IMG/VR virus record: IMGVR_UViG_3300036852_000135
Location: 1-42,650 of that record
Source of the DNA: a virus
DNA length: 42,650 nt
Strand: one strand, 5' to 3'
Shown here: positions 1-42,650 of the stretch, one piece after another
Layout: the number at the start of each line of letters is the position of its first letter
Position numbering within the stretch: position 1 is the first letter of the stretch
The notes under the pieces: generated by a model
What the model was told of the DNA's origin: nothing
The model's input: only the letters and a program-made list of their open reading frames with translations
Databases searched by the model: none
Position numbers and translations under genes: made by a program

Positions 1-778
1 TAGCGCAAGCGTCTCGCCCAGCGGGTCGGAATCACCTAGCATAAGCCCGTCAGTTAGTGTGAGCCCAAGCGTATCACCCAGTTCGTCAGCATCTCCCAGT
101 GCAGGTGCTGAAGGTAATTTCGCTATGTGGATGGAGGGTGAAGACTTGACGGGCACGCTGTCTGCTAACGATCCAGTAGACACGTGGCTTAATACCGGAA
201 ACGGCGGAACGGGCTATGACTTGATTAAGATTGCCACTGATACCACTCGTCCGCTCTATAAGACCGCCAGTGGGCCAAATGGATTGCCTTACGTCGAGTC
301 TAACCGTAGCAGTTTCCAGACACTGAAAGTGCGCACGGCCAGTGGAATGCTGGCGACCGCGTCAACCTTGGTCATGGTAATCAACCCGCAATCGTTGGCC
401 TCCAGTTATGACTGCGCCTTCCTGAGCGGAAAGAACGGTCTGTATTTAAAGCTAGGTGGCTCTAACTGGGGATCTTACATGGAAGGCGATGTGGATTCAG
501 GCGCAGCGCTGTCCACCGGCACATGGTATGTGCTGGCTATTGTCATGCGGGCGTTTAATGACATCGATTTCTACACCGGGCTATCAAAGGTGACGCGAAC
601 AAACGGCAACAACTATCACAACAGCCCGCTAATACAAACCATTTTCTCCAGTGGGAACGCAGAGCAGTGGTCGTCGGTTAAGTGCGCGATGGTAGGGTGG
701 GACGATACGACGTATGACGAGACAGCCATGGACGCGATTATCAATGCGCTAGGGACTAAGTACGGGGTCAGCGTATGA
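1..778 (+). CDS. Ser-Pro repeat protein with C-terminal LamG-like domain, 5' partial
   Basis: The reading frame is open from base 2, so the gene begins outside the window. The first 35 or so residues are Ser-Pro repeats of the SPSxSx type, like those in the gene at 34228-37314. The remaining roughly 220 residues look like a concanavalin/LamG-type beta-sandwich: many alternating hydrophobic strands, a GTWYVLAIVMR strand typical of such domains, and no catalytic motif that I can see. A GTG at 59 could be read as a start, but the repeat continues upstream of it, so it is internal. The stop overlaps the next start as ATGA, which suggests translational coupling. The likely role is a virion adhesin or tail-associated protein (inferred from domain type and neighbour). 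Confidence 0.8.
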   Translation, partial: SASVSPSGSESPSISPSVSVSPSVSPSSSASPSAGAEGNFAMWMEGEDLTGTLSANDPVDTWLNTGNGGTGYDLIKIATDTTRPLYKTASGPNGLPYVESNRSSFQTLKVRTASGMLATASTLVMVINPQSLASSYDCAFLSGKNGLYLKLGGSNWGSYMEGDVDSGAALSTGTWYVLAIVMRAFNDIDFYTGLSKVTRTNGNNYHNSPLIQTIFSSGNAEQWSSVKCAMVGWDDTTYDETAMDAIINALGTKYGVSV

Positions 779-2931
779 GCTACGAATCTCTCAAGCTGGC
801 CGCCAACCCCGCTCTCTACTGGCGGCTCGATATGGTTGGCGTGGCTGCGGATGGCGATGTAGTACCCGACATCTCCGGCAACAGCATGGACGGCGAGCTA
901 CGTCTCCTGCCCGGCGTCCCACCCTACGGCCTGACCTCACCGATTGAGTCCGACGCCTCCAGCAAAGCCATACTCATCCAAAACACGCCGCTCGATGGCA
1001 CGCAATCGTTTGTGGAGAGGGACTCCGACCCGGTGATTGAAGTTACCGACGACTTCACGCTGGAAGGCTGGTTTGCGGTGTCTATTGGCACGGTGGCTAA
1101 TGCTGCGGCGCTGGTCTACAAGCGGGCATCGTTTGGCGGGGACAGGTGTTTTACCATTCGAGTGGACACAGCAGGCCGCTTCGTCGGCGAAATCCGCGAT
1201 TCAGCCAACGCTACATGGACAGTCGCCACCCCACAATCACTCACCTATGACCAGTGGTACTACGTGGTGCTCGTACGGCTGGGAAACGCGCTGGCTATCT
1301 ACGTGGATGGCACCCTGCGAGCCACAGCGACTATCACCAGCGGCCTGCCCACGCTGAACGAGCCCGGTAAGTTCCAACTCGCTGGCCAAATTTCCGGCGA
1401 CTACCAGTACCGGGCTGATGAGGTGGCGTTGACTCTCAGCGGCCTGAGCGGGGCTACGATATTTGCTCAATACGAAGCAGCCTTCAACACCCTGAACATG
1501 TTTGGCCAGTGCGACATCCGCACGTCGGCGGTCATCAGGGCGAGTGACGAGCCGGACCCGGTCGCGTACCCGTTCAGGCACAATTGGGAGCAGCCGGTTG
1601 TGGAGCGCCTCAGGTGGAAGTCGTCAGTGTTCAAGCCAATAGACGGGGCGACGGAGTTGCGACGCCAGCGTAGTGCACCCCGCCGCCAAGTGGAGTACCG
1701 GCACTTGCTATATAACGAGCAACTCAGCCGACGGTTCACAGCGCGCGCGTTTGGTGGTCGCACGTCGATAGTGCAGTTTGAGCCCGACAAGGTGCGGGTG
1801 GGTGACTTGTTAGCCGGGGCTACCTCAGCCAGCGCAGACTTCGCGCTCATGGACTTCGAAGTAGGCCAGTATGCTTACGTCTGGGCTGATGACGACACTT
1901 ACGAGGTGGTAACGCTCAGCGTGGTGGGTGATAGTGGGGTGGAGTGGGAGGAGCCGCTAACGCGCAACTACACACGGCCATGGCTCAAACCTGCCCGTGT
2001 GGCCCGCATCCCGCAATCCCAACAAATGGACGGGGAGACCGACACGGTTGGGGTGGCGTCCACGCAGTACGACTACATCGAGTCAGACGAGCCGCTCAAC
2101 CCCCGCCGCATCATCCCGTACACACCCACCCTGCTATACCGGGATCGGGACTGCTGGGACTTGCGCGAGTGGCAGGGGCACGATTACTCGGAGATTCCAG
2201 CACACGAGTGGGTGGCAGATCGCTCGCAACTAGACGAGTCAACCGGGGTGGTGGCCACTAAGACCTACCGCTGGGGTGCGGAACAGGTGCAACCGTGGAA
2301 TATGAACCTGCAAGGGCGCGTGATGATCGCTAAGTATCTGGGTTGGCTGTATGAACGTAGCGGCCAAGCGTCTCCGTTCTGGTTCCCGACCTTCAGGCAG
2401 GACTTGAAGCCGTTGGCCGTCAGCGGGAATGTGCTCCAAGTCGAAGGTCACGACTATACTAACTTGTACGCCAGCGCTGACAATCGGCTGGACCTCGCTT
2501 TCGTCTACTTCGACAACACCTACGCGCTACGTCGCATACTCTCGGCTAACGTGGACGTTGACAACGATGCCTTGGAGTTGGATGCTGTGGTGCCCACGCT
2601 GGCCAACCTGCGCTGGCTGAGCTTCCTACGGCGGGTGATCCTAACCAGCGACGATCTTGAACTGGCCTGGGAAACCGACAACGTGGTGCGGGTAGCTTTC
2701 GCAGTCACCGACGCGCCACTTGACTGGGAAGCTGGGTCACCAAGCCCAAGCCCGTCACCGTCCTTGTCCACCTCCCGCTCACCGTCACCTAGTGGCAGCG
2801 CATCTGGGTCAGGCTCACCGTCGGGTTCACAATCGCCTTCCACGTCTACCAGCCCCTCGGTGTCGCCTTCAGGCTCAACCAGCCCGTCCGCGTCAACCTC
2901 GCCGTCGTCGAGCGCCAGCCCCTCTACGTAA
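775..2931 (+). CDS. Tail or baseplate-like protein with N-terminal LamG-like domain and C-terminal Ser-Pro repeat
   Basis: This 718-residue protein has three parts. Residues 1-240 are a LamG/concanavalin-like domain, with FTLEGWF and YYVVLVRLGNALAIYVDG strands. Residues 245-660 resemble a domain found in phage minor tail or baseplate proteins, with a SPFWFPTFRQDL motif and a closing LRWLSFLRRVIL...D.LELAWETD segment. Residues 668-718 are Ser-Pro repeats. The gene is coupled to the preceding one by an ATGA overlap. Its last 8 bases overlap the end of the convergent gene at 2924-4471, leaving no room for a conventional intergenic terminator. I infer a structural role in host attachment. The exact tail position is unknown. 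Confidence 0.8.
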   Translation: MSYESLKLAANPALYWRLDMVGVAADGDVVPDISGNSMDGELRLLPGVPPYGLTSPIESDASSKAILIQNTPLDGTQSFVERDSDPVIEVTDDFTLEGWFAVSIGTVANAAALVYKRASFGGDRCFTIRVDTAGRFVGEIRDSANATWTVATPQSLTYDQWYYVVLVRLGNALAIYVDGTLRATATITSGLPTLNEPGKFQLAGQISGDYQYRADEVALTLSGLSGATIFAQYEAAFNTLNMFGQCDIRTSAVIRASDEPDPVAYPFRHNWEQPVVERLRWKSSVFKPIDGATELRRQRSAPRRQVEYRHLLYNEQLSRRFTARAFGGRTSIVQFEPDKVRVGDLLAGATSASADFALMDFEVGQYAYVWADDDTYEVVTLSVVGDSGVEWEEPLTRNYTRPWLKPARVARIPQSQQMDGETDTVGVASTQYDYIESDEPLNPRRIIPYTPTLLYRDRDCWDLREWQGHDYSEIPAHEWVADRSQLDESTGVVATKTYRWGAEQVQPWNMNLQGRVMIAKYLGWLYERSGQASPFWFPTFRQDLKPLAVSGNVLQVEGHDYTNLYASADNRLDLAFVYFDNTYALRRILSANVDVDNDALELDAVVPTLANLRWLSFLRRVILTSDDLELAWETDNVVRVAFAVTDAPLDWEAGSPSPSPSPSLSTSRSPSPSGSASGSGSPSGSQSPSTSTSPSVSPSGSTSPSASTSPSSSASPST

Positions 2932-6553: not shown

Positions 6554-7312
6554 TTAGGTTACCGCTTCTACACGCCAAAAGTCATTGGCTAAGCCTGCGT
6601 TAGCTATGTACGCATACGGCAGCCAGAATACTCCCTGCGCACCCTCCCCCTCACCCCATGAGTTGGGGCAGCGAAACCGTTGCAAGTCATCGTCGTAGCC
6701 GTTGCAGTAGATAAGATGGCCACCCTCGTAAGTCTCACTCGTCTTGGGCATCGGGGTCATGCCGTCGTCGCTGGTATCGTAGAACGATGAGTAGACATCC
6801 ACGCCGACTAAGAAGGGCAGGCGCTGGGCCAGTGAGTACTTCAGGTGGTGCAGGTTGTCATTGGCTAGCATGCGCACGTAGCGGCCTTCGATTACCTTGT
6901 GCTGCTTAGCCTTAGCCAGCAACTCCTGTGGCGGGCGGGCATTGAGGGTATCAGGCAGTAACGGCCAATCTACCTCACTAACCACCCCGTTTGAGATCAT
7001 CGACTGCATCACGTCCCGAGGCATGGCTCCCTCGTCTTCATTCTCCCAACCCAGCCGGGGCACGTGACGGCCAAACCAGTAGTTGAAGGCTGGGGAGAGG
7101 GCGAAGTCGGGTAGGCCCAGCAGACGCAGGGTGTAGCGGTACAACGATGCTGTGGCGTGGCCCGTGCAGGAGTTAGTTGGGCCCTGGTCAAGAATCGGCG
7201 GGGTCCACAGCTCAACACGATGTGGCAATTGCGCAGCCGGAGCCTCAAACCGATGGTCCTGCGGGTGACGGATGTCACGTTGCCAGCCTAGTCCTCGTCG
7301 TCGCTTGGTCAC
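6554..7312 (-). CDS. Papain-like (C1-family) cysteine protease
   Basis: This 252-residue protein has the papain catalytic triad in order. The oxyanion Gln and nucleophile are in DQGPTNSCTGHA (Gln43, Cys49), the His is in EGGHLIYCNGYD (His199), and the Asn is in PNSWGEG (Asn217). The start is GTG 7312 with TAAGGAG upstream. There is no signal peptide. It sits immediately downstream of the holin gene. C1 proteases are uncommon in phage lysis cassettes. The target could be host or virion protein, or crosslinked peptides of the wall. The family is secure and the role is not. Confidence 0.85.
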   Translation of the reverse strand: MTKRRRGLGWQRDIRHPQDHRFEAPAAQLPHRVELWTPPILDQGPTNSCTGHATASLYRYTLRLLGLPDFALSPAFNYWFGRHVPRLGWENEDEGAMPRDVMQSMISNGVVSEVDWPLLPDTLNARPPQELLAKAKQHKVIEGRYVRMLANDNLHHLKYSLAQRLPFLVGVDVYSSFYDTSDDGMTPMPKTSETYEGGHLIYCNGYDDDLQRFRCPNSWGEGEGAQGVFWLPYAYIANAGLANDFWRVEAVT

Positions 7313-26100: not shown

Positions 26101-27018
26101 TTGGCAAGCTCTCCAGAGTTTCTCATTGAAGGAATCCTGCCCGCAAATGAGGTTCATCTGCTGGGTGGCTCATCCGGCAGTGGGAAGACGACGCTATTAT
26201 TTCAGGTGCTGGCAGAGTGGCAGCAGGGGCACGACGTATTCGGACACAAGTCATTTCCGGTGCCATATGCCTATCTCAGCCTGGATCGCTCACGCAGCTC
26301 GGTTCAGCGCACCCTTGCCCGCATTGGCCTCAACGACCAGATCCCCAACATTATTACACGCGAGAAGTTTCCCAAGCTGATAACACCCAAGGCAATGTTT
26401 GACGTCGGGCAAGCTGCATTCCCTGAGTCGCAGGCGTTCTTTGTCGAGGGCTACCAAACTCTCGCCGGTGACAAAGGCAACTCTTACTCGCCGGTTGCTA
26501 ACCTTCTGACTGAAAGCGCGATCATTTGCAGTGCCAAGCATCTGACGTTGCTCGGCGTGGCCCACGCTGCCAAGCTCAAGCGCGAGGAAAGCTGGCAGAA
26601 CTCTCGGGAAGTACTGCTTGGCTCAGTGGCCTGGTCGGCTTACTCTGACACAATCATTGTGCTTGACCACAACGAAGACACGCGCATTGTTACCTGTCGT
26701 ATCATGCCGCGTAACGCGCCATCTGAGCAGCACGAGTTTATCTTCGGTGACAGAGGCATCCTTCAACCTTACGTCCAGCGAACCAAGAAGGACTCCTTCT
26801 GCATGCGTATCGCGGCTCTACAAGCCGGACGACCAATCACCCGCGATGAGATCGTCTCCTGGGGCAAGTCCTCAAGTGTCAGCACTCGTACCTGTGACGC
26901 AGCTATCAAAACCTGCATAGAAAATAATTTACTTGAGGTAATTGGCAACGGAATCTACGAAAGAACGACCGTGTCCCTCCCTGAAATACCCGCAGATCCA
27001 GACATAACTGTTGAATAA
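26101..27018 (+). CDS. RepA/KaiC-type replication ATPase
   Basis: This 305-residue protein has Walker A at GGSSGSGKTT (22-31), an SLDRS segment after it, and a Walker-B-like strand AFFVEGYQ. It is the AAA_25/RepA-like ATPase type used as phage or plasmid helicases or helicase loaders, and ends in a winged-helix-like region. The only in-frame start is TTG 26101, with AAGG seven bases upstream. It is followed at once by the phased TTTGCAAA field, consistent with replication initiation. Confidence 0.75.
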   Translation: MASSPEFLIEGILPANEVHLLGGSSGSGKTTLLFQVLAEWQQGHDVFGHKSFPVPYAYLSLDRSRSSVQRTLARIGLNDQIPNIITREKFPKLITPKAMFDVGQAAFPESQAFFVEGYQTLAGDKGNSYSPVANLLTESAIICSAKHLTLLGVAHAAKLKREESWQNSREVLLGSVAWSAYSDTIIVLDHNEDTRIVTCRIMPRNAPSEQHEFIFGDRGILQPYVQRTKKDSFCMRIAALQAGRPITRDEIVSWGKSSSVSTRTCDAAIKTCIENNLLEVIGNGIYERTTVSLPEIPADPDITVE

Positions 27019-31240: not shown

Positions 31241-31765
31241 TCGTTGTCGGTGACCATCGTCGTACTTCGTTACAATCAAACATTATCATTACCATCGCTT
31301 GATAACCTTGGTCCAATTGGTCTAAGTGTTGGCCCATGTGGTCTAACTACAGGTTGCGATGGCCACTGATGATGACTACCATCGATAGCACCCCGGTTGC
31401 CGGGAGTTCGAGCGCGTACCAAGCACAGGGCGGGCACTACCACTTCTACGCGTTTGCAATTTTCTAATAGTAAAACTTAGCAAAAAGACGATGAACACTG
31501 TTGTTGCGTCTGCTGGTCGTTATCAGGACGCTCGTCAACAATGATTATCCGCCGTCGTCGGCATCAATCACGTGTTATGAAACCAAGTTGGTGAATTGGG
31601 ACGGCAGGATTCAACCTGCACTGCCTTTCGGCTACTGACTGCCGCCAGCGGGTCTCTCTCTCAACTTGCCAGTTGGTGCTTTTGGTTATAGGCACGTGTT
31701 CCCCTACGTCTCAATCTAGCATTTTATCACAGGCTGAGCCCACTATCGTGATAATCTGCCCGTTG
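31241..31765. other. Gene-free stretch between the terminase genes
   Basis: I see no gene in this stretch of about 525 bases. It holds TGGTCTAA twice, 21 bp apart (31318-31325, 31339-31346). ACCATCG occurs three times (31253, 31291, 31378), with a fourth copy at 30766 before the small terminase. There is also a tRNA-like folded block at 31584-31671. A packaging (cos/pac) site would be expected in such a place. The region upstream of 31766 in the terL frame lacks a ribosome site. Confidence 0.45.
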
Positions 31766-33361
31766 ATGAGCACCCGCCGTCGCCAGCAAACCATCGGGCC
31801 CAACTGGGAAACATGGCCGCCGGAGATCAAGCTGCGGTTTCTGGAGCAGTTGCGCGCCCTTGATCAGCCCGGCGAGACGTTCAAGAAGACCTACCGCCAC
31901 GACCCGGTTGCCTTCGCCCACGATTGCATCGACTGGGGCGATGAGCATCTGGCCCTGTACCAGGAGGAGATCCTTGGCGAACTACCCCAGCGCCGTCGCG
32001 TTGCAGTGCGCGGCCCCCACGGCCTCGGCAAAACCTGCATCGCCTCCATCGCGCTCCTGCACTTCGCCCTGACCCACGACGGCAGCGACTGGAAAGTGCC
32101 CACCACAGCCAGCGCCTGGCAGCAGTTGACTGAGTATTTCTGGCCCGAGGTGCACAAGTGGGCGAGTCGCATTCGCTGGGATCGCGTTGGCCGCGCTAAA
32201 GTGACCAAGTATGAACTGCAAACCCTCAAGCTCACCCTGACCACCGGCCACGCCTTTGCTATAGCCTCGGCTGAAGATGAACGCACTGAAGGAGCTCACG
32301 CCAGCCATCTATTATACATCTTCGACGAGGCTAAAATTATCCCACCAAGTCGCTGGGATGCAGCAGAAGGCGCACTCTCCACTGGCGATTGCTACGCACT
32401 GGCCATCTCCACCCCCGGTGACCCCAGTGGGCGCTTCTACGATATCCACTCCCGCAAACCCGGCTACGAAGACTGGTGGACCCGACACGTAACTGTCGAT
32501 GAGTGTATTGCCGCCGGTCGCATCAGCCCGGAGTTTGTGCAACAACGTGCCCGCCAGTGGGGTGAGACGTCAGCGGTGTATCAGAACCGCGTACTGGGGG
32601 AGTTTTGCGAGTCAAGTGAGGATTGCGTGATACCGCTGGCGTGGGTGGAAGCCGCCAACCGCCGCTGGGAGGCACAGGTGGAGGTGCTCGATGCGCACTG
32701 GAACTGGATTGAAGGCGCTAAGCAGAATCGCTGGCCGAGATGGCGCTGGCGTGATGGCCGGGACGCCAAGCCCGTGACCGCGCTGGGCGTGGACATCGCC
32801 CGCAGTGACTTCGGCGACAAGACGAGCATTGCGCGCCAACAGGAGCAGACGATCACGCAACTTGACCGCTACGCCATCGCCGACACGACGCCGGTAGTGG
32901 GCTACGTCAGCAACCTGCTGGAGAAGTGGCATGGGTCGTATGCCGTGGTTGACGTCATTGGCATTGGCAGCGGGCCGTACGATCAGCTGCGTGAGCGGTT
33001 TGCCACTCGTGCTGTGCCGTTTAACGCCAGCGAGTCTAGTGACGCGCGCGACCGCAGCCGTGAGCTGGAGTTCAGTAACAAACGCGCCGCCGCCTGGTGG
33101 CACATGCGTGAGTTGTTGGATCCGGCCTTTGACTCGCAAATCGCGCTCCCGCCCTGTGACCTGCTCACTGGCGACCTGACCGCACCGCGTCGGGGCCGCA
33201 TGACCAGTGCGGGTAAGCTGACCGTGGAGTCCAAACCCGACATTCGCAAACGTCTGGGCCGCTCGCCTGACGACGGTGACGCAGTGGTGATGGCTTTCTA
33301 CGAGCGCCCGGTAGCGCCGCAAGACCAAGCGTATGGCGTGTCCTACGTTGAGTACTACTGA
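31766..33361 (+). CDS. terL: Terminase large subunit
   Basis: This 531-residue motor and nuclease has Walker A GPHGLGKT (83-90), Walker B LLYIFDEA (182-189) and an STPGDPSG coupling motif near 215-222. The RNase-H-like nuclease acidic residues lie in GVDIARSDFGD (Asp343), YAVVDVIGIGSG (Asp396) and SPDDGDAVVMAF (about 499-510). It cuts and packages phage DNA at the portal. ATG 31766 is the most likely start. The frame is open back to 31673, but without support. Confidence 0.92.
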   Translation: MSTRRRQQTIGPNWETWPPEIKLRFLEQLRALDQPGETFKKTYRHDPVAFAHDCIDWGDEHLALYQEEILGELPQRRRVAVRGPHGLGKTCIASIALLHFALTHDGSDWKVPTTASAWQQLTEYFWPEVHKWASRIRWDRVGRAKVTKYELQTLKLTLTTGHAFAIASAEDERTEGAHASHLLYIFDEAKIIPPSRWDAAEGALSTGDCYALAISTPGDPSGRFYDIHSRKPGYEDWWTRHVTVDECIAAGRISPEFVQQRARQWGETSAVYQNRVLGEFCESSEDCVIPLAWVEAANRRWEAQVEVLDAHWNWIEGAKQNRWPRWRWRDGRDAKPVTALGVDIARSDFGDKTSIARQQEQTITQLDRYAIADTTPVVGYVSNLLEKWHGSYAVVDVIGIGSGPYDQLRERFATRAVPFNASESSDARDRSRELEFSNKRAAAWWHMRELLDPAFDSQIALPPCDLLTGDLTAPRRGRMTSAGKLTVESKPDIRKRLGRSPDDGDAVVMAFYERPVAPQDQAYGVSYVEYY

Positions 33362-33516
33362 ACTGGGACACGTGGAACCTTAAACCTTCAACTATGACCT
33401 GAGCTTAACTAGATTGGAGCCTTGGCGATCAACTTTCCCACCTTACCCTACCCGTCCCGTTGTACTATGCTCGCCAACTAACCCGACGCGCGGGTACAAA
33501 GCGTGGAGGTACGTGT

Positions 33517-34224
33517 ATGAAACTGTTGTTAATTGTCCTGCTTGCCTTACCGCTGACTGCTAACGCGCAAACCTGTTTCTATGCGCCAACGATTTATTCG
33601 GTTACCCCTGATGGGTTTCCGACCATTAGTGGTTCACTGCTGATCCTTGTCGACGTCGAGTCCCAATGTCCCGATCGCACTCTCTGGGCCAATGCTCGTA
33701 TTTGGCACGGTTATTACGGTCCCTGTTACCTTGACCCGGACTTCTGCGTCTACCCCGACACGCTGAGTGCGGGTGGGCAGTACGCTGGCGGTCAGGTAGG
33801 CATGCGTCACTTTGCCCTGCTATGGGATACGACCCGCTGGGCCAATGGTGATTATCCGTGGACGCTGGAGGTGCATGATCAGTTTGATGCCAACTCAGGT
33901 GTGAATCGGTGGGTACACATTGTGAACCCTGCTCCGCTACCCGATACCCAGCCACCGCAAGCATGGCTGCAATATCCCTATGACGGTTTTCAAATGCCGA
34001 ATGGCAAGTACGCCTCACAACCTTTGCAGTTGCTGGTCGCTGATAACGTCGGCGTATCTCAGGTGGACTTGCTGGATAACGGAACTCAGATTGCCTCGTC
34101 TACCACTCAACCATTTGCTTTCAGCTATAACCCTAAAACCCACGGCACCCACGTCCTGCAACTGCGCGCTTGGGACGCAGCGGGTAACATTGGCTACTCA
34201 AACACGGCAACCGTGACTAAGTAA
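33517..34224 (+). CDS. Secreted Ig-like protein of unknown role
   Basis: This 235-residue protein has a clean signal peptide (MKLLLIVLLALPLTANA, cleavage before QTC). The C-terminal 100 residues are an Ig-like domain of the Big/cadherin type (DNVGVSQVDLLDNGTQIASSTTQPFAFSYNP...WDAAGNIGYSNTATV). The ordered N-terminal 110 residues are Cys/Tyr-rich. GGAGGTACGTGT precedes ATG 33517. A signal peptide on a gene beside terminase is unusual. It may act at the host surface or periplasm. The 155 bases before it hold no gene. Confidence 0.7.
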   Translation: MKLLLIVLLALPLTANAQTCFYAPTIYSVTPDGFPTISGSLLILVDVESQCPDRTLWANARIWHGYYGPCYLDPDFCVYPDTLSAGGQYAGGQVGMRHFALLWDTTRWANGDYPWTLEVHDQFDANSGVNRWVHIVNPAPLPDTQPPQAWLQYPYDGFQMPNGKYASQPLQLLVADNVGVSQVDLLDNGTQIASSTTQPFAFSYNPKTHGTHVLQLRAWDAAGNIGYSNTATVTK

Positions 34225-34227
34225 AAC

Positions 34228-37200
34228 ATGGCAATCCCTGTTTTCTGTTGTGGCGCGGAATGCGGCGTGATTGGCGGCAACGCTGTAGGCGCTCCCCACT
34301 GGTTTCAAAGTTCGGGAACCAATGCCAGCATCTCCACCACCACCACCCGTAGTGGTTCTCGTGCGTTTCGGTTTAATCCTACTGGCGCGGCTAGTGGAAT
34401 CCAGACCGTTGCCCTGACTTCAGCCACTCGCTGGATTGGTCATTGTTACGTGTGGTTTACAACTCTGCCCAGCAACGACCAGGCAATTATTCGTTTGCCC
34501 GGTGGTGGCCCGGCGGTAAGCTTCAAACAGTCTGATTCAAAAATCTATGCCGCTATTATCGGCACCGGCAACGGCGCATCAGGAATTAGCGTAACCACAG
34601 GCCAGTGGTACAGGATTGACTTTGACTTCAATATTAACACGGGCGGTAATGACACCTGTGATGCGCAGGTTGACGGGGCAGTCTGCGGTCAGGCTACGGG
34701 AACCGGACTAAGTGCGGGTGTAACAGCACTGCAAATTGGCTGCGGCACGGGCAGTTCAACTGCTGACTTCTTCATTGACGACATCCTGCTCAGTAATACC
34801 GCGGCCGATTACCCTCTTGGCACAGGCAACGTCTACCACTTCATACCTGCTGCCGACGGTACACACAATGTTGCCGGAGCTAACGACTTTGAGCGTGGCG
34901 ATACCGGCGTGGATATTGATAATGCTACCACAACAGCGTTCCAGCTGGTCGATGAGGTGCCGTTACCCTCGGGCACGGTTGATGAAACAGACTGTATTCG
35001 TGCTGTCGCCCCACCTAACGCTACCGACTATGTCGAAGGCGTCTTTGGCCCCGCGTCCGGCATTGGTACGCCTGCTGCTGGCCCACGCGGAGTAGAAGTT
35101 ATCCTGGCTCACCACCAGATTGCTACGACAGTGGGCCAGATGGTGGTGGAGTTAAACGATAACGGCTCCATCGACACGATCTTTGACACCGGGGCTGCAG
35201 CTGGTGTGATTACTTACCGCTATGCCCGCAAGCACTATGCCGATCCGCCGAGTGCGGCCACGTCGTGGAATGCGGCTAACGATGGCGGGAACGGTGATTT
35301 CCGCGACCTGCGCTTCAGGTTCCGCGCGCCTGACGCAGCCCCGGACCAATGTCTGGACGCAATAATGATTGAAGCGGAGTTTGCGGTGGCAGGCTCAGCC
35401 TCGGTCTCCCCGTCGTTCAGCCAGTCGCCCTCAGCCTCGCAATCACCCTCAGCCTCGCAGTCGCCCAGCGCCTCGGTTAGTCCATCTGCGTCAGTGAGCC
35501 CGTCTGCTAGCGTCAGCCCGTCAGTTAGTCCCAGCGTCTCACCTTCGGGGTCAGTAAGCCCCAGTGCGTCAGTTTCTCCCAGCGCCAGCCAATCGCCATC
35601 GTCATCCGCATCTCCGTCAGTCTCGCCAAGTGGGTCCGTCAGCCCGTCAGCCAGCGCCTCCCCAAGCGTGTCGCCCTCAGCCAGCGTGTCCCCGTCGGCG
35701 TCCGTGTCTCCATCGTCGTCAGCCAGCCCGAGCGTCAGCCCAAGCGCGTCGGCCTCACCATCGTCATCGGCCTCACCGTCAGTCAGTCCCTCGGCGTCTG
35801 TGTCTCCGTCAGCCTCTATCAGCCCGTCGTCGAGCGTCAGTCCGAGTGTGAGTCCGTCTGCGTCTGTGTCTCCCAGCGTGAGCGAATCGCCTAGTGTTTC
35901 ACCATCTGCCTCAGTCTCCCCTTCAGCCAGCCTGAGCCCCAGTGCGTCGGCGTCTCCCAGTGTGAGTCCAAGCGCCAGTGTCTCGCCATCTGCGAGTGTC
36001 AGTCCAAGCATCTCGCCAAGTGCCAGCGTCAGCCCTTCAGCGAGCGCATCGCCCTCGGTGTCACCCTCTGCTTCAGTGAGCCCCAGCGCCTCGGTGAGTC
36101 CCAGTGGCAGCACCTCGCCGAGCATTAGCCCGAGCGCCTCAGTTTCCCCTTCATCGTCGACCTCGCCGTCCGTTAGCCCATCGACTTCGGTGTCCCCTTC
36201 GGCCTCTGTGTCCCCGAGTAGCAGCGCGTCTCCGTCCCTGAGTCCCAGCGCCTCAGTCAGCCCCAGCAGTTCCGTCTCACCGTCAGTCTCCCCTTCAGCT
36301 TCAGTTTCACCAAGTGCCTCGGTGAGCCCGAGTTCCTCGCAATCGCCATCCGTCAGTCCCAGCGCCAGCGCCTCTCCCAGCGGCAGTGCCTCACCGTCCG
36401 TATCACCTTCGGCCAGCACTTCCCCCAGCGCGTCCATCTCGCCCTCGTCAAGCGCGTCGCCATCCATTAGTCCATCAGCTTCAGCCAGTCCGAGTTCCAG
36501 CGTCTCCCCCAGCGTCTCTCCCAGCGCCTCGCAATCACCATCATCGTCGGAGAGTCCGAGCCAGTCACCTTCTGCGTCTCAGTCCCCATCAGCATCCGTC
36601 TCCCCTTCGGTATCTCCCTCTGCCAGTGTCTCGCCTTCAGTCTCGGTCTCTCCGTCGGTGAGCTCCTCGGCCAGTCAGAGTCCGTCCGCATCTGAGTCAC
36701 CCAGTATTAGCCCCAGTCCCAGTCAATCGCCCTCATCGTCGGCTTCCCCCTCTACCCCGCCCCTGGGTTCACCGTCAGTCAGCCCGTCAGCCAGCGTTTC
36801 TCCATCAGTATCACCAAGTGCCAGCTTGTCGCCCAGCGCGAGCGAGTCTCCCAGCGTCAGTCCGTCGCTATCCGTGAGCCCCAGCGCCAGTGTAAGTCCA
36901 AGCGTTAGTCCATCGAGTTCAATAAGCCCGTCTGCCTCAGTCAGCCCCAGTGTGAGTTCCAGCGAGTCGCTGAGCCCCTCGATTAGCGAGTCGCCCAGCG
37001 TGTCGCCGTCTGGGTCAGCCTCAGCATCTGCCAGCCCGAGTGGCAGCGAATCACCCTCGCTCTCACCCAGCGCCAGTGCTAGCCCCAGCGTGAGTCCCTC
37101 AGCTTCAGTTAGTCCGTCAGTAAGCCCCAGTGAGTCTGTCTCACCCAGCGCGTCCCAATCACCCTCCAGTTCAGTCTCGCCCTCCACCGCAATCCCTGAC

Positions 37201-37314
37201 TTCATCCAATGCTTCTTTGACGCTCGTCACCCCTCGGCGACCTTCAGTCTGCGTCGTCCCACCTGCACCTTCACTATGGCCAGCCCGCGCGTGACCATTG
37301 AACCAACTTTCTAG
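34228..37314 (+). CDS. Giant Ser-X repeat adhesin-like virion protein
   Basis: This 1028-residue protein has two beta-sandwich-like domains (about 1-205 and 205-385, the first resembling a LamG/concanavalin fold: FRFNPTGAASGIQTVALTS, WYRIDFDFNIN). Then come about 600 residues (388-985) in which almost every second residue is Ser and the sequence runs as SPSASV-type hexamers, and a 40-residue end (PDFIQCFFDARHPSATFSLRR). No ribosome site is clear. Similar repeats occur in the two genes at 1-2931. It is probably a host-recognition or decoration protein. The repeat is mucin-like. Confidence 0.8.
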   Translation: MAIPVFCCGAECGVIGGNAVGAPHWFQSSGTNASISTTTTRSGSRAFRFNPTGAASGIQTVALTSATRWIGHCYVWFTTLPSNDQAIIRLPGGGPAVSFKQSDSKIYAAIIGTGNGASGISVTTGQWYRIDFDFNINTGGNDTCDAQVDGAVCGQATGTGLSAGVTALQIGCGTGSSTADFFIDDILLSNTAADYPLGTGNVYHFIPAADGTHNVAGANDFERGDTGVDIDNATTTAFQLVDEVPLPSGTVDETDCIRAVAPPNATDYVEGVFGPASGIGTPAAGPRGVEVILAHHQIATTVGQMVVELNDNGSIDTIFDTGAAAGVITYRYARKHYADPPSAATSWNAANDGGNGDFRDLRFRFRAPDAAPDQCLDAIMIEAEFAVAGSASVSPSFSQSPSASQSPSASQSPSASVSPSASVSPSASVSPSVSPSVSPSGSVSPSASVSPSASQSPSSSASPSVSPSGSVSPSASASPSVSPSASVSPSASVSPSSSASPSVSPSASASPSSSASPSVSPSASVSPSASISPSSSVSPSVSPSASVSPSVSESPSVSPSASVSPSASLSPSASASPSVSPSASVSPSASVSPSISPSASVSPSASASPSVSPSASVSPSASVSPSGSTSPSISPSASVSPSSSTSPSVSPSTSVSPSASVSPSSSASPSLSPSASVSPSSSVSPSVSPSASVSPSASVSPSSSQSPSVSPSASASPSGSASPSVSPSASTSPSASISPSSSASPSISPSASASPSSSVSPSVSPSASQSPSSSESPSQSPSASQSPSASVSPSVSPSASVSPSVSVSPSVSSSASQSPSASESPSISPSPSQSPSSSASPSTPPLGSPSVSPSASVSPSVSPSASLSPSASESPSVSPSLSVSPSASVSPSVSPSSSISPSASVSPSVSSSESLSPSISESPSVSPSGSASASASPSGSESPSLSPSASASPSVSPSASVSPSVSPSESVSPSASQSPSSSVSPSTAIPDFIQCFFDARHPSATFSLRRPTCTFTMASPRVTIEPTF
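35395..37190 (+). repeat. Coding Ser-X / SPSxSx repeat tract
   Basis: The tract holds about 100 units of six residues (S-P-S-x-S-x) with occasional four-residue SPSV units. The x positions are Ala, Val, Gln, Gly, Ile, Leu, Glu or Thr. Ser codons (AGC, AGT, TCG, TCA, TCC, TCT) are well mixed, so the protein pattern is conserved while the DNA has diverged. Confidence 0.85.
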
Positions 37315-37351
37315 TTGACTAGGATTACTCTTTAGACTACAGTACTGTCTA
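37315..37351 (+). promoter_or_regulatory. Promoter with overlapping dyad before the 37356 gene
   Basis: TTGACT (37315-37320), a 17-bp spacer and TACAGT (37338-37343) make a sigma-70-like promoter. An inverted repeat TAGAC...GTCTA (37333-37337, 37347-37351) covers the -10 and the expected start site, as an operator would. The ATG at 37356 is only 12 bases past the -10, so the message would be leaderless or nearly so. Confidence 0.55.
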
Positions 37352-37355
37352 ATTT

Positions 37356-37595
37356 ATGAAATTAGGTAAGCCTACAACTGTATTACCACCTAAGGCGTCA
37401 GGACGAAATGACGGTAAGTACGCGGCTATCTACGCCGCAGTGGACAAGCTCAAAAATGGGGACTGGCTGCCCGTTATGTTTAATTCCACCCGTGAGGCGT
37501 ACAATTTCAGGATAGCCTGCGAGACTCATCGTACTCGGATGTTGGAGGCCGCCATGAGACAGTGTGTAATCTTTGTGAGGAGACGGAAAAGTTAA
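37356..37595 (+). CDS. Hypothetical protein, first gene of the glycan-modification cluster
   Basis: This 79-residue basic protein (ASGRNDGKYAAIYAAVDKLKNGDWLPVMF) resembles small phage proteins that pair a NDGKYAA segment with an ERACETH-like motif. I recognise no function. There is no ribosome site before the ATG. It ends in TAATG with the fused glycosyltransferase. Confidence 0.6.
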   Translation: MKLGKPTTVLPPKASGRNDGKYAAIYAAVDKLKNGDWLPVMFNSTREAYNFRIACETHRTRMLEAAMRQCVIFVRRRKS

Positions 37596-39604
37596 TGGCT
37601 AAAGTTGCGATAGTTTCTCCCGCTCGAAACGAACCGTACTTGGTGAACACGGTAGAGGACGCGTTTCGCAATGCTGGCGGCGAAGTGGAGTTTGTCGCTG
37701 TACTCGAAGGCTACAAACCCGACAACTGGGACGCCATCGTCGCCAGGTACCCCAACCTGCACACTATCTACCATAGCGAGCCCCAAGGCATGCGTAAGGC
37801 CATCAATGAGGGGGTGGCCAGCGCGATCAGTCGTGGCGCGAAGTACATCCTGAAAGTAGACGCGCACTGCTCGTTTGCGGAGGGGTTTGACGTCGCACTA
37901 GCCGCCGACTGCGACAAAGACTGGGTGGTCATTCCGCGTCGACTACGCATGGACGTAGAGAACTGGAAAGTGCGTGACGATGGTCGTCCGCCAATCGACT
38001 ATCACTACCTTAGCTTTCCTGACAACGTGCAGGACTTTGGCGGGCCGGGCTTGAACGGCAAAGTCTGGGCTGAGCGAGCGCGCGAACGGTTTGGTAAGCC
38101 CGAGTACGACCTGGACGATGAAATGGCCAGCCAAGGCAGTTTCTACTTCATGCACGCCGACTACTTCCAGTTCCTTGAACTCATGGACGAGACGCATTAC
38201 GGGAAGTTCTGGAATGAAAGCCAGGAGGTATTGAACAAGTGCTGGCTGTCAGGCGGGAGAGGCGTGATCAACAAGAAGACGTGGATCTCGCACTGGCACA
38301 AGGGGTCGGCTGGTCGTGGCTACCACTTGCCAAAAGACTGGCTCAACCATGGGGCGACATTCACCAAGCGCTGGATGTTTAACGATGCTGCGTTCAGCCA
38401 TAAGCAGACCCGTCCGTTCAAGTGGCTCATCGAACACTTCTGGCCCGTACCAACCTGGCCGGAGAACTGGGAGGAGTTGGTGTATGGGACAAAAGGGCGT
38501 GCGGCTATCAGTGTTCCTGCGGTTGCTGGCGCTATCAGTGATAGTAGGCTTGCTCCTGGGAGTCCTGCTAACCCATCTGTTTCCACCCTGACAATCCACT
38601 CAGCCTACTACGGTGTTGGTGAGATGCGTTCCGCTGAGCCTAACGGCATGGCAACATGGATTGACGTGACTAAGCTATTGCAGTCGAAAGTAGTCAATGG
38701 TTCGCTGGATATGAATGTCACTAACGCTGAACTCGAAGTTGGCAACCCCTTTCGCGGCCAGAAGAAGAAGCTGATAGTTACCTATGCCTACGACGGCGGC
38801 CCGCCCGTTACGATCACGAAGGACGAACGCGACTGGCTAATCATCGGGCAGTCGGCGCGGTATGTGAAGGGGGACACTGCTGATAGTGGGGTGACAATAG
38901 AAGTTACTGACGGTGGTCGAATCTGGTTGGAGTCCGCTACTAAAGACGATGATAATGTAATCCCACTTAAGTTGCAGATGTCCGCCACCGCCCTCACCGA
39001 CTTCCTCACCCGCCGTTTCGCCATTCCCGCTCACCGCCTGCGTGGCCCAATGCCCATCGAGGTGCCGACGTTTCACAGGAACGACCTAGCTGCACTGTTT
39101 GCTGAGCTAGGCATGAACCACGGCGCTGAGATTGGCGTGGCTGAGGGTAACTACAGCGAAGTGCTGGTGAAAGCTAACCCTAACCTCGAACTACTATGCG
39201 TTGATCCGTGGCACGCCTGCGACGGCAATAAGCAACAGAAGTCACACGACAAGCACGTCTACGCTTTCAATGAGGCTAGTCGTAAGCTACAAGGTAGCAA
39301 GGCTCGGCTTATTGCCAAGACGTCAATGGATGCAGTGCGCGATATTCCTGATGGTTACTTAGACTTCGTCTACATTGACGCCAACCATTCATTCGACTAC
39401 GTGCTCATGGATATTATCGAGTGGTCCAAGCGTGTGCGCTCAGGCGGTCTAATAACCGGCGATGACTTCTACTACCTCGACCCCAAGCGCTGGGGGACTG
39501 GGCCAGTGGAGGCGGTGATGGCCTACGCCGAGGCGCACAAGATTAGTCCGTGGTTTACGTTTCAGGGGCATAAGTCGGTGGATTTCATGTGGGTGAAGCA
39601 ATGA
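37595..39604 (+). CDS. Glycosyltransferase GT2 / DUF3395-like / methyltransferase fusion
   Basis: This 669-residue protein has three regions. Residues 1-300 are a GT-A glycosyltransferase (AIVSPARNEPYLVNTVEDAF; YILKVDAHCSF at 84-94 as DxD-like site; ISHWHKGSAGRGYHLPKDW). Residues 330-420 resemble DUF3395 (TLTIHSAYYGVGEM, WIDVTKLLQSKVVNGSLDM, KKKLIVTYAYDGGP). Residues 490-665 are a Rossmann methyltransferase (AEIGVAEGNYSEV, LLCVDPWHA, LDFVYIDANHSFDYVLMDI, GGLITGDDF). ATG 37595 overlaps the previous stop and has GAGGAGACGG upstream. It probably adds and methylates a sugar. The acceptor is unknown, and the adjacent Ser-rich protein is one candidate. Confidence 0.8.
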   Translation: MAKVAIVSPARNEPYLVNTVEDAFRNAGGEVEFVAVLEGYKPDNWDAIVARYPNLHTIYHSEPQGMRKAINEGVASAISRGAKYILKVDAHCSFAEGFDVALAADCDKDWVVIPRRLRMDVENWKVRDDGRPPIDYHYLSFPDNVQDFGGPGLNGKVWAERARERFGKPEYDLDDEMASQGSFYFMHADYFQFLELMDETHYGKFWNESQEVLNKCWLSGGRGVINKKTWISHWHKGSAGRGYHLPKDWLNHGATFTKRWMFNDAAFSHKQTRPFKWLIEHFWPVPTWPENWEELVYGTKGRAAISVPAVAGAISDSRLAPGSPANPSVSTLTIHSAYYGVGEMRSAEPNGMATWIDVTKLLQSKVVNGSLDMNVTNAELEVGNPFRGQKKKLIVTYAYDGGPPVTITKDERDWLIIGQSARYVKGDTADSGVTIEVTDGGRIWLESATKDDDNVIPLKLQMSATALTDFLTRRFAIPAHRLRGPMPIEVPTFHRNDLAALFAELGMNHGAEIGVAEGNYSEVLVKANPNLELLCVDPWHACDGNKQQKSHDKHVYAFNEASRKLQGSKARLIAKTSMDAVRDIPDGYLDFVYIDANHSFDYVLMDIIEWSKRVRSGGLITGDDFYYLDPKRWGTGPVEAVMAYAEAHKISPWFTFQGHKSVDFMWVKQ

Positions 39605-39825
39605 CTATTGAATACGCGAATGAAGCTCGTGCTTTAACCGCTAGGAACAAGTGGACAATCGAGACATTGCTAATCGCCGTTGAGAATGCGGCAGTAGCAG
39701 GTAATTCGACTGTTGACGTAGCTCCTACACCGAGCCAAGAGCTTATTGAAGAACTTTGCTCTAGGGGGTTCACGGTTAACGTGAACAAGAGTGACTACGA
39801 TAACGATTGCAGAATTTCATGGTAG
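39601..39825 (+). CDS. Small hypothetical protein
   Basis: This 74-residue helical protein starts by ATGA overlap with the fused glycosyltransferase (EYANEARALTARNKWTIETLLIAVENAA). I recognise no family. Confidence 0.55.
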   Translation: MTIEYANEARALTARNKWTIETLLIAVENAAVAGNSTVDVAPTPSQELIEELCSRGFTVNVNKSDYDNDCRISW

Positions 39826-39834
39826 GAGTAGCCA

Positions 39835-40053
39835 ATGACCTTCACCGAAGCCCTCAGTGCCGTGTTCAACGACAGCGACCGCGTCACCCGCGCCCACTGG
39901 AACTCGCGGGCCATCTACGTCGAACTAGTCGACTCGCAACTCTGCATCGTCGGCTTCATAGCCAGCGGCAAGAACGACGGCCTACCGCACCCGTGGATTG
40001 TGACGGATCAGGATTACTTTGCTGATGATTGGGAGGTGATTGTGGATGCGTGA
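39835..40053 (+). CDS. Tad2-like (DUF2829-type) protein
   Basis: This 72-residue protein follows the DUF2829 plan: FTEALSAVFNDSDRVTRAHWN at the start, IYVELV and then PHPWIVTDQDYFADDWEVI at the end, where the W...D..A.DWEV signature lies. In some phages this family is Tad2, which binds the Thoeris signalling nucleotide. AGGAGTAGCCA precedes the ATG. Whether this copy counters Thoeris is inference. Confidence 0.65.
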   Translation: MTFTEALSAVFNDSDRVTRAHWNSRAIYVELVDSQLCIVGFIASGKNDGLPHPWIVTDQDYFADDWEVIVDA

Positions 40054-40525
40054 GTTCTACAGAGCAGACCCTGAGCAGTGGAAGAAAAATATTAGTGCCG
40101 CGAAGAAAGGCGTTCCCTTATCACCTAAGGACAGGCAGCGAACGGTCGAGCAGTTAAGAGCTATGAACATAGCTCGTCGTGGTATTCCTCGCTCCCCTGA
40201 GGTCAGGGCCAAAATCTCTCAATCTAAAGCCGGGATCGCCACCGTCTGGCAAGAGACTCACGGTTGCTGGCGTGGCGACGATGTTCGGTATGGTGGTATT
40301 CATCAATGGCTGAACGCTCAGTTTGGAAAGCCTAAAGAATGCCAAAATAGTAATTGCCTAGGTCGGTCAACGAACTTTGACTGGGCACTCAAAAGGGGAA
40401 TGCGACACAAGCGCAAACGGAAGAACTATGTCCGGTTATGCCGTTCGTGCCATAGAAGCTACGACACGAATGTGGAATTTATGATTGATGTCCAAGTATT
40501 ACACGAGGTTGAGAATGCGGACTAA
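40046..40525 (+). CDS. HNH-type endonuclease-like protein with NUMOD3 element
   Basis: This 159-residue protein has the NUMOD3 element SPEVRAKISQSKAG and a zinc-bound core: HGCWRGDDVRYGGIHQWLNAQFGKPKECQNSNC...NFDWALKRG...LCRSCHRSYD. That core pairs Cys residues around a degenerate HNH-like motif of intron-homing types. ATG 40046 lies inside the end of the Tad2-like gene. It may be a free-standing homing endonuclease, which fits the mosaic look of this region. Confidence 0.65.
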   Translation: MREFYRADPEQWKKNISAAKKGVPLSPKDRQRTVEQLRAMNIARRGIPRSPEVRAKISQSKAGIATVWQETHGCWRGDDVRYGGIHQWLNAQFGKPKECQNSNCLGRSTNFDWALKRGMRHKRKRKNYVRLCRSCHRSYDTNVEFMIDVQVLHEVENAD

Positions 40526-40742
40526 GCAGGAGATAGACAACCTAAGAAAGCAGCATCTTATAGCGAGTGACGCTGAAATGATTATGATTGAACTACTGAC
40601 TGACATTAGGGAATTGCTCCAAGCAGGCGAAGATCGCATTGCCCGGCTGGAGCAGATGGCTGAGGAACATCGTCAGCAAGACTTGGTTCGATTAAGGTCA
40701 GAATCTGGCGTAGTAACAAGAGACAGGTTCCCTAAGCCGTGA
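40515..40742 (+). CDS. Small coiled-coil hypothetical protein
   Basis: This 75-residue protein (KQEIDNLRKQHLIASDAEMIMIELLTDIRELLQAGEDRIARLEQM) is a continuous helix with heptads. GAGGTTGAG precedes ATG 40515. Its stop overlaps the next ATG as TGATG. Function unknown. Confidence 0.55.
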   Translation: MRTKQEIDNLRKQHLIASDAEMIMIELLTDIRELLQAGEDRIARLEQMAEEHRQQDLVRLRSESGVVTRDRFPKP

Positions 40743-40792
40743 TGCGCGTCTACCTCCAACCACCCCAGCTCGACTTGATAGCCTATGCCTAA
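40742..40792 (+). pseudogene. Vestigial second start of the glycosyltransferase gene
   Basis: Sixteen codons encode MRVYLQPPQLDLIAYA, nearly the start of the protein at 40948 (MKVFLQPPQPSLGLDRIAHA). The ATG is coupled to the previous gene as the real gene start would be. It looks like the original gene start, displaced when the 40785-40979 segment was inserted. Confidence 0.5.
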
Positions 40793-40979
40793 CGTAGAGC
40801 GACAACGAGAGGCGGACAAAGAGTACCGTCGTCGCAACTCCAAGAAGGGCCAAGTTCTTTGTCGCGTATGTACTGAACAGGCTAGAGCTGAATATGGCCC
40901 AGACAGCTATGCTTACCATGAACCACCTGAATGTAAAGTAGAGTCAGATGAAAGTATTCCTACAGCCCCCACAGCCTAG
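40785..40979 (+). CDS. Small basic protein with CxxC motif
   Basis: This 64-residue protein has a basic start (NVERQREADKEYRRRNSKK) and VLCRVCTEQARAEYG, followed by a disordered end. It lies between the vestigial and real starts of the glycosyltransferase, and may be an inserted gene. Function unknown. Confidence 0.5.
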   Translation: MPNVERQREADKEYRRRNSKKGQVLCRVCTEQARAEYGPDSYAYHEPPECKVESDESIPTAPTA

Positions 40980-41862
40980 CCTCGGCCTCGACCGCATCGC
41001 CCACGCGCTCCGTCGCTATGCCCCAGCAGGCGTGGAAGTCTGCCAGTTCCCGCGCAACGTGGACTTGACGGTGATTTATGCGATTGGGAGGCGCGACCAC
41101 ATTGAGCGTCAGTGCAGGGAGATAAAGCAAAGGGATAAGCGATACGCGGTCATTCAAGTTTGCTTAAAATCAACTATGTCTCCTAATGTAGATGACTGGG
41201 TAGACATCTGGGAGAATGCGATAGTTGTTTGGAGCTACTACGACCTAGCACGACAATTTTATAGCGCAGGATACGATACCGACGGTGGCTGGAGGTTCCC
41301 GCAGCATTTCTTCCACGTCCCACTCGGGGTTGATGGGCAGGTGTTTTACGACAGGTTCACCAGCCCCCGCTGGGACGACCTGCCCCACAACGAACGCAAC
41401 GTCACCATCGTCACCAGTGGTCATAGCCGACTGAGCGAATCGGTCCGCGAATGTTGGCTGGCTGCCGAGCAAGTAGAAGGCACGGTCGTACACCTTGGCC
41501 CACTTAAGCCAGCGAAGCACGTCATGTCAGTCACTAATGTCAGCGATGCTGAACTAGCGGTTCACTATTCGGCTAGCCAGTTCGTTTCTGGTCTCCGTCG
41601 TACTGAAGGCTTCGAGCTACCTGCGGCTGAGGGGTTGTTGTGCGGGGCCAGACCCGTAGTGTTTGACACTCCCGACTACCGCTGGGCCTACAAGTCATGG
41701 GCCGAGTATATCCACGAAGGCACCCGCGCTGAAGTCGTCGACCAACTGGTCCAGCTATTCAAACAGGGAGCGCGTCCAGTGACTGCAGCCGAGCGCGAAG
41801 AAGCCGCCCACTGGTTTAACTGGGAGCGGGTGTGCGGGGAGTTCTGGCAGAGATGCTTGTAG
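40948..41862 (+). CDS. Glycosyltransferase-like protein (GT-B type)
   Basis: This 304-residue protein has a C-terminal GT-B element RRTEGFELPAAEGLLCGARPVVFDTPDYRW, where the EGFE...AEGLLCGARPV pattern is the nucleotide-sugar site of GT1/GT4-like enzymes. The first 150 residues form a Rossmann-like domain. It is coupled to the next gene by overlap at 41853. With the fused gene at 37595 it would build or extend a glycan. The substrate is unknown. Confidence 0.7.
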   Translation: MKVFLQPPQPSLGLDRIAHALRRYAPAGVEVCQFPRNVDLTVIYAIGRRDHIERQCREIKQRDKRYAVIQVCLKSTMSPNVDDWVDIWENAIVVWSYYDLARQFYSAGYDTDGGWRFPQHFFHVPLGVDGQVFYDRFTSPRWDDLPHNERNVTIVTSGHSRLSESVRECWLAAEQVEGTVVHLGPLKPAKHVMSVTNVSDAELAVHYSASQFVSGLRRTEGFELPAAEGLLCGARPVVFDTPDYRWAYKSWAEYIHEGTRAEVVDQLVQLFKQGARPVTAAEREEAAHWFNWERVCGEFWQRCL

Positions 41863-42065
41863 TAACGGCAACGGAATTGTTTCGGGAGCTTGGGCGCGCA
41901 GCGGCTGAAGCTGGCGTGTCCCTGTCTTCGTTGACTCATGGGTGTAGGGCCTGTGATGGTGGTTTTATCTTCTTGGACAAGGGTGGTGTACGTCCATGCA
42001 TGTTGTGCAATCAAGCGTTTATAACTAGAGCTACTTATAGTATTAAGGGGCCGACCGACGAATGA
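41853..42065 (+). CDS. Small zinc-binding protein (DnaJ-type CxxC)
   Basis: This 70-residue protein has a helical start, then HGCRACDGGFIFLDKGGVRPCMLCNQAF, two cysteine pairs in a DnaJ zinc-finger-like arrangement. ATG 41853 overlaps the preceding stop in another frame and the stop overlaps the next ATG as ATGA. Function unknown. Confidence 0.55.
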   Translation: MLVVTATELFRELGRAAAEAGVSLSSLTHGCRACDGGFIFLDKGGVRPCMLCNQAFITRATYSIKGPTDE

Positions 42066-42650
42066 CCACCACCCTCGACCGCATCCTTCACCACTGGCCC
42101 CAGACGCCCACCACTGGCCGCTCGCCGCGTGAGATTCCTAACGTGGGGCGGGATGATTTAGCCACGCTACTGGGCCAACTCGGCTTTACCCGAGGCGTAG
42201 AGGTCGGCACCGAGCGCGGCGAATATGCGGAGATACTTTGTCAGGCTAACCCGCAACTCTACCTTGACTGTGTAGATCCCTATCGCGCCTACCGTGATTA
42301 CCGCGAACACACATCACAACCTAAACTTGACGCCCTCTGCTACGAAGCCACCCACCGCCTACGCAACTACAACGTCACCTTCGTGCGTGACTTCAGCGTA
42401 GATGCGACTCATCGCTATGACGACGAATCGTTGGACTTCGTTTACTGGGATGGCAACCACTCGTTACCTTACGTCATTCAAGATCTGGTGACATGGACGC
42501 CTAAGATACGCAAGGGCGGGATCGCAGCAGGCCACGATTTTATCCGCCGCAACAATCGCCTGCGCTACCAGTGTCACGTCGTCGAAGCCGTTCATGCCTA
42601 CACCCAATCGTATATGATTGACCCCTGGTACGTGCTCGGCACCAAGGCTG
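42062..42650 (+). CDS. Class I methyltransferase, 3' partial
   Basis: 196 codons are visible and the frame is still open at the window end. It matches the C-terminal methyltransferase of the 37595 fusion: RDDLATLLGQLGFTRGVEVG against RNDLAALFAELGMNHGAEIG, then CVDPYRAYRD, DFVYWDGNHSLPYVIQDLVTW and KGGIAAGHDF. The two are clear paralogs, so methylation in this cluster is carried out by at least two related enzymes. Confidence 0.8.
   Translation, partial: MTTTLDRILHHWPQTPTTGRSPREIPNVGRDDLATLLGQLGFTRGVEVGTERGEYAEILCQANPQLYLDCVDPYRAYRDYREHTSQPKLDALCYEATHRLRNYNVTFVRDFSVDATHRYDDESLDFVYWDGNHSLPYVIQDLVTWTPKIRKGGIAAGHDFIRRNNRLRYQCHVVEAVHAYTQSYMIDPWYVLGTKA

Follow-up and report, generated by a model that had tools for sequence, protein, structure and literature searches.

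The viral record IMGVR_UViG_3300036852_000135 of IMG/VR, analysed here over its whole length (42,650 bp, linear) and called the window below, encodes an extremely serine-rich protein directly upstream of glycosyltransferase (GT) and methyltransferase (MT) genes on the same strand. The record is probably a fragment, so that this cassette is cut at its right end. The arrangement raises the question whether a phage can carry enzymes that glycosylate its own proteins, as had been proposed in an initial annotation of this DNA. Our analysis indicates that the virion of this phage is probably the target of a mucin-like O-glycosylation system that the phage itself encodes for this purpose.

The putative O-glycan acceptor is a tract of 593 aa (35407..37185, +) within a protein of 1028 aa (34228..37314, +), which further consists of an N-terminal region of ~390 aa and a C-terminal module of ~40 aa with conserved beta-like repeats. 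The roughly 600-residue alternate-serine tract described earlier proved to be real: Ser occupies 295 of 297 alternate positions, the composition is 52% Ser and 19% Pro with almost no Thr, and 106 Ser-X-Ser-Pro (SXSP) sites are present, each with Pro at +3 of a Ser. A similar composition (51% Ser, 1.3% Thr) was obtained for the tracts of 94 SXSP contigs. The region is mucin-like as a long Ser/Thr/Pro-rich repeat, and its association with GTs suggests that the repeat may be densely O-glycosylated. Identity between repeats at third codon positions was at chance level (0.24-0.30 at lags of 6-60 nt), protein identity at in-register lags was 0.51-0.74, and the six Ser codons were used near-evenly (2.52 of 2.58 bits). 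Because third positions are random and Ser codon usage is even, the repeat pattern is kept by selection on the protein, and the same observations rule out an artefact of DNA slippage. Identity of the 34228 protein as a serine-rich repeat (SRR) adhesin was also rejected, since an SRR-type signal peptide is absent from its N-terminus (MAIPVFCCGAECG...).

Two further tracts are present in the window in addition to the one first annotated. The 3' part of another SXSP protein (2..778, +) begins inside a tract of ~40 aa, which is followed by a globular C-terminal domain, and a protein with Laminin_G and tail assembly (phrog_1082) assignments (775..2931, +) ends in an SXSP tail of ~70 aa. As judged from these domain matches, SXSP tails sit on structural-type proteins of the window genome. 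Proteins of the 34228 type were found at the equivalent place after the terminase large subunit (TerL) gene in the related contigs L003, L005, L008, L009 and L010. Several phage assemblies end within SXSP repeats, as seen at window position 1 and at the contig ends of L004 and L350; because assemblies break inside these repeats, metagenome collections probably contain too few SXSP phages, and these in truncated form.

The first enzyme downstream is a fusion protein (37562/37595-39604, +), for which the ATG at 37595 is a likelier start than the GTG at 37562. As first annotated, it combines GT2, DnaJ-like_C11_C (formerly DUF3395) and Methyltransf_24, all above the Pfam cut-offs. Its GT domain, termed GT-alpha (37595..38560, +), has a GT-A fold and resembles polypeptide N-acetylgalactosamine (GalNAc) transferases. 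The DUF3395-type domain (38588..38828, +; 27.9 bits against a cut-off of 27.1), a candidate substrate- or glycan-binding module, lies between the GT and the Methyltransf_24 domain (39128..39470, +; Pfam), a class I methyltransferase dependent on S-adenosylmethionine (SAM). A second Methyltransf_24 protein (42062..42649, +), likewise recognised earlier, is truncated by the contig end. Upstream of it, a putative GT-B (GT4-like) glycosyltransferase (40948..41862, +) carries a TEGFELPAAEGLLCG motif that was read from the sequence. Its previous assignment as a GT-B enzyme agrees with this appearance, while its sole database support consists of two weak PHROG glycosyltransferase matches (E about 0.009) and no relatives were found in the viral contigs searched; it is a putative member of the unit by its position.

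The class of GT-alpha, which the initial annotation did not contain, strengthens the claim that the phage glycosylates its own proteins. A profile of 30 GT-alpha domains, the wider family being required for a strong score, ranked polypeptide GalNAc-transferases first (E 5e-14), as did a profile of the sister family GT-beta (E 3e-15; hhalign of GT-alpha with GT-beta, E 1.5e-80). AlphaFold models of GT-alpha and GT-beta (predicted local distance difference test scores of 89.6 and 87.4, respectively) were compared with PDB structures. For the GT-alpha model, the top 29 entries were all polypeptide GalNAc-transferases (Z 24.1-26.9; root-mean-square deviation of about 3 over 260-285 residues) and the next entry reached 19.6; for the GT-beta model, the top 29 were likewise GalNAc-transferases (Z 23.4-26.5, then 19.5). 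In both models the lead of these enzymes over the next family is about 4-5 Z units, and the lower-ranking matches of GT-alpha include polysaccharide enzymes with a GT2 fold.

The residues D100xH102, E219 and H244 (numbering from 37562) align with the DxH motif, the Glu and the metal-binding His of GT27 enzymes. D89, H91 and H233, which are invariant in 30 GT-alpha sequences, match the metal ligands Asp209, His211 and His344 of GalNAc-T1 (PMC10901373), and a metal site K-x-D-A-H-C occurs in nearly all GT-alpha and GT-beta members. DxH takes the place of DxD in GT27 and GT60, both families of peptide Ser/Thr O-glycosyltransferases (PMC7185993), and Pro at +3, for which a pocket is known, is preferred in acceptors, -TSAP- of Muc1 being an example (PMC10901373). 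The phage system therefore shares with mucin-type O-glycosylation by GT27 the GT-A fold, DxH, the conserved Glu, the metal-binding His and a Ser/Pro-rich acceptor with Pro at +3. It differs in that the phage enzyme has about 17% identity to GT27, carries a DUF3395-type domain and a methyltransferase in the same chain, and is encoded by phages and bacteria of the Candidate Phyla Radiation (CPR). Its GT-A catalytic domain is nearest to GalNAc-transferases in sequence and fold, but a Pfam scan of the full 37595 protein found no ricin-type lectin domain, and for this reason the enzyme is called GT27-like and is not filed as a GT27 member. On sequence and model grounds, GT-alpha is polypeptide GalNAc-transferase-like, and GalNAc transfer itself is predicted. 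The GT-beta proteins (L003:13288-15102 and relatives) contain a Cys4 zinc-ribbon-like insert within the GT; their C-terminal domain of ~220 aa with a conserved E-H-D-V-L-Y-H-P motif, found elsewhere as separate genes, is possibly a second transferase.

If tract and enzymes belong together, the pairing should recur in related contigs, and it does. Seven phage contigs encode the fusion enzyme, with 51-58% identity; an insertion splits it in one of them. The gene order is TerL (where the contig extends), SXSP protein, GT-DUF3395-MT, GT-beta (about 550-760 aa) and a head protein (phrog_29), which in six of the seven is followed by a protein of 129-139 aa with an SXSP tail. In two contigs, a large tail protein, assigned to phrog_1101 in one case, contains an SXSP insert. 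All close relatives with the fusion enzyme retain the Ser-X protein, so that the refuting case named in the initial annotation, related phages having the cluster and lacking Ser-X proteins, was not encountered. Within the terminase lineage, a single clade counted as one event, tract and enzymes were both present in 6 loci of at least 10 kb and both absent in 35. The exceptions were one contig ending before the enzymes and one false positive, phiAsp2, which together with TurkishDelight is the isolate phage nearest to the window by TerL (47-48% identity); its pas57, flagged as Ser-rich, is an LPxTG-type stalk and not SXSP. Across about 80 terminase relatives, a true SXSP tract was accompanied by the enzymes unless the contig ended first, and the enzymes were never found without a tract. 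In the more distant contigs L012, L013 and L015, which have other structural genes, SXSP proteins adjoin unfused GT and MT genes. Next to these, L013 (5245-6614) encodes a gmhA-like isomerase and an HddA-like heptose kinase, which suggests that a heptose donor may be made by some of these phages themselves. No annotated isolate phage with GT-alpha or GT-beta was obtained by tblastn with single members. The glycosyltransferase gp20 of TurkishDelight was considered as a relative and rejected, as its sequence looks like GT-B and the cassette GT profiles did not match it.

The pairing also holds among other phages. Selection by a degenerate DNA pattern encoding SPSASVSPS, which takes no account of the enzymes, retrieved 119 stretches, 94 of them with the tract in an open reading frame (ORF). 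GT2 was detected by Pfam in 42 of 48 SXSP-pattern records against 6 of 48 arbitrary-pattern records (Fisher p 5e-14), and Methyltransf_24 in 34 of 48 against 4 of 48 (Fisher p 2e-10). Profiles of the cassette GTs, for which part of the sequences came from the SXSP set, with a scoring advantage for that set, matched 41 of the 78 SXSP loci of at least 4 kb, compared with 0/105 random and 0/109 collagen-repeat loci (p about 1e-19); for the cassette MT the counts were 20/78, 1/105 and 0/109, respectively. The bias of the profiles cannot create matches of such strength, and the Pfam-based test is independent of it. All GTs (79/79) share the strand of the nearest tract, at a median gap of 402 bp; a rotation test of adjacency within contigs was only mildly informative, the contigs being short. 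Of the 48 SXSP records, 26 have a phrog_2 TerL, and its scores differ widely, indicating that several phage lineages are involved. The idea that repeat-bearing fibres generally attract GTs is ruled out by the lack of this GT at all 109 collagen-repeat loci.

Outside the viral contigs, a scan of genomes with GT-beta yielded 45 loci, 39 of which are in records named Patescibacteria or CPR, and an SXSP-type ORF lay within the examined stretch at 29 of the 45. Some loci (L313 and L314) are phage-like, and others (L332, L327, L307 and L329, the last a chromosome record) lie on long contigs or chromosomal sequence and have no phage structural genes close by. Among evenly drawn Patescibacteria genomes the cassette was found in 4/287, and in Planctomycetota in 1/294, all of them already known from the scan. 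This patchy CPR distribution suits a mobile module. The window terminase, which points toward phages of Actinobacteria, gave one weak partial match in 29 GT-beta genomes, and consequently no host link is drawn. A tatC-like gene is close to the cassette in L327, L329 and L332. The same three loci encode giant SXSP proteins (about 1,500-2,300 aa; stop-split in L329) beside the GT/MT cassette, and these proteins have a tail-fibre-like C-terminus (GRPKNAKIGTIGFN...).

In the mechanism that we favor, the acceptors would be SXSP tails and linkers on the 34228 protein, on the 775-2931 tail protein and on the small post-head protein of relatives. The cytoplasmic GT-alpha (37595) would put the first sugar, which may be GalNAc, N-acetylglucosamine or another, on Ser, guided by the SXSP register with Pro at +3. 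Further GTs would then extend the glycan, namely GT-beta in relatives and the 40948 enzyme in the window phage, whose own GT-beta was probably lost beyond the contig end. The Methyltransf_24 enzymes might cap the glycan through O-methylation; sugar methylation by this broad SAM-dependent family is suggested by genomic context and by precedents in other viruses. Linkage, elongation and order of steps are likewise proposals. As a result, head and tail would display a glycan-coated brush, stiff and hydrated, which may serve adhesion, protection from proteases or recognition, or dispersal of virions. The pairing and the enzyme class support the idea of an own-protein glycosylation machinery put forward earlier, into which the 40948 enzyme is placed by adjacency. 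Concealment from receptors or antibodies and binding of lectins, the purposes suggested there, are candidate roles.

Several points weigh against this reading. The system is known from sequences and models. The window's own GT family of four sequences scores weakly against GalNAc-transferases (E 0.011), and eukaryotic GalNAc-transferases have a ricin-type lectin domain and work in the Golgi. For the function of the methyltransferases, PDB and NCBIfam profiles gave nothing beyond one weak match (6g7d, E 1e-3, 39 residues). Furthermore, the phages are mutually related, so that the counts are inflated and not fully independent, and GT and acceptor could each simply mark phages that infect the same host group. 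Lastly, 37 of the 78 SXSP loci have no such GT in the examined stretch; many of these are short or cut, and with contigs being fragments that are often broken within SXSP repeats, absence is weak evidence. The loci without GT would suit an explanation in which the SXSP tract is a bare, unglycosylated linker or spacer, while GT and MT bring about superinfection exclusion by altering a host surface glycan (O-antigen or wall polysaccharide), their place in the late region beside the tract being coincidental. Phage GTs that modify host glycans are common, and the GT2 fold is common to polysaccharide enzymes. Nevertheless, we regard this explanation as improbable, given the specific co-occurrence and same-strand adjacency, which is unseen with collagen repeats, and a GT family nearest to peptide transferases. 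In addition, the neighboring genes are those of terminase, head and tail and not those of a lysogeny module, and no GtrA-type flippase match was obtained among the scanned cassette proteins of the window.

It appears similarly improbable that the SXSP proteins are glycosylated by a system borrowed from Patescibacteria hosts, where it would serve a cell-surface glycoprotein, with the phage protein acting in infection, for example on the host, and not on the virion. The dominance of Patescibacteria among the GT-beta genome loci, several of which have no phage genes nearby, would be expected from such an origin, but SXSP tails of phages extend tail-type proteins and are also encoded after the head protein, the prevalence in Patescibacteria is low, and the window terminase is nearest to phages of Actinobacteria. 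Modification of phage DNA bases by GT and MT has very little probability. The MT domain does match PHROG 2675, labelled DNA methyltransferase, but the label attaches to Methyltransf_24, which is a broad fold. The closest known enzymes of the GT are peptide transferases, no hydroxymethylase-type gene was found among the scanned window proteins, and the linkage to SXSP tracts would be left unexplained.

Glycosylation of the virion by phage enzymes has precedents. In mycobacteriophages (Corndog of cluster O, Che8; Freeman et al., 2023, cited in PMC11600133), phage GT and O-methyltransferase genes modify capsid and tail tube proteins, and a glycosylation gene cluster is described in PMC4351075. 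As in the mycobacteriophages, where an O-methyltransferase and several GTs are encoded inside the structural operon and act on capsid and tail proteins, GT and MT genes lie within the structural region of the window. In contrast, SXSP acceptor tails are not described for mycobacteriophages in the available text of these two sources, and the likeness drawn here is one of gene content. The chlorovirus PBCV-1 encodes A064R, a multidomain GT-GT-methyltransferase, and a second methyltransferase, A061L, which together build an O-methylated virion glycan (PMC9614988). It resembles the window in having a GT-methyltransferase fusion plus a separate second methyltransferase, whereas its glycan is an N-glycan of the capsid protein and its rhamnosyltransferases belong to other families. 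The SRR adhesins of Gram-positive bacteria likewise have long alternate-Ser repeats, with dedicated GT genes alongside. Unlike these, the window protein is encoded in a phage structural region and its initiator would be a GT-A, GT27-like enzyme and not a GtfA/GtfB pair; GtfA/GtfB and SecA2/SecY2 were not among the Pfam matches of the window proteins scanned, which covered part of the ORFs.

The right end of the window is ordered TerS (30779), TerL (31673..33361, +; PHROG and isolate-phage matches), an Ig-like (Big_7) protein (33460..34224, +; Pfam), the SXSP protein, the fusion enzyme, an HNH/homing-type endonuclease (40040..40525, +; Pfam and PHROG), the putative GT-B and the second methyltransferase. 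By gene order, the position of TerL upstream puts the cassette in the late structural region. The Big_7 protein, immediately 5' of the SXSP protein, is a possible surface protein, and the endonuclease is inserted in the cassette between fusion enzyme and putative GT-B. The coupled overlaps of the initial annotation were found in part: the stop of a 79-aa ORF (37356..37595, +) overlaps the ATG at 37595, which would allow translational coupling, and a 77-aa ORF overlaps the start of the 42062 gene, whereas the named cassette genes are spaced by gaps of 200-440 bp with small ORFs and the HNH gene. Elsewhere, the window encodes a papain-family (Peptidase_C1) protease-like protein (6554-7312, -) in a minus-strand gene block and an AAA_25/NACHT-like ATPase (26101-27018, +) on the strand opposite to its neighbors.

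According to the abstract of PMC5504323, metazoan-type O-GalNAc does not occur in bacteria, and our literature search found no earlier description of Ser-rich proteins of phages or CPR bacteria together with these GTs. The chances seem evenly balanced that mucin-type O-glycosylation, comprising a GalNAc-transferase-like initiator, enzymes dedicated to elongation and a Ser-Pro repeat as acceptor, is also found beyond eukaryotes. It would there be a mobile cassette that many phage lineages and Patescibacteria have in common, coating virions and possibly cells, and it may be related by descent to the animal system. A few mycobacteriophages are known to glycosylate their virions with enzymes of their own; for environmental phages, the cassette would mean a new type of glycosylated virion surface, and it would offer a clue to the interaction of phages with Patescibacteria. 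As a prokaryotic mucin-like system it lends itself readily to experimental tests, and it possibly opens a simple route to making mucin-like polymers in the bacterial cytoplasm. Moreover, it would account for a large group of Ser-rich phage proteins of low complexity that tend to be dismissed as noise.

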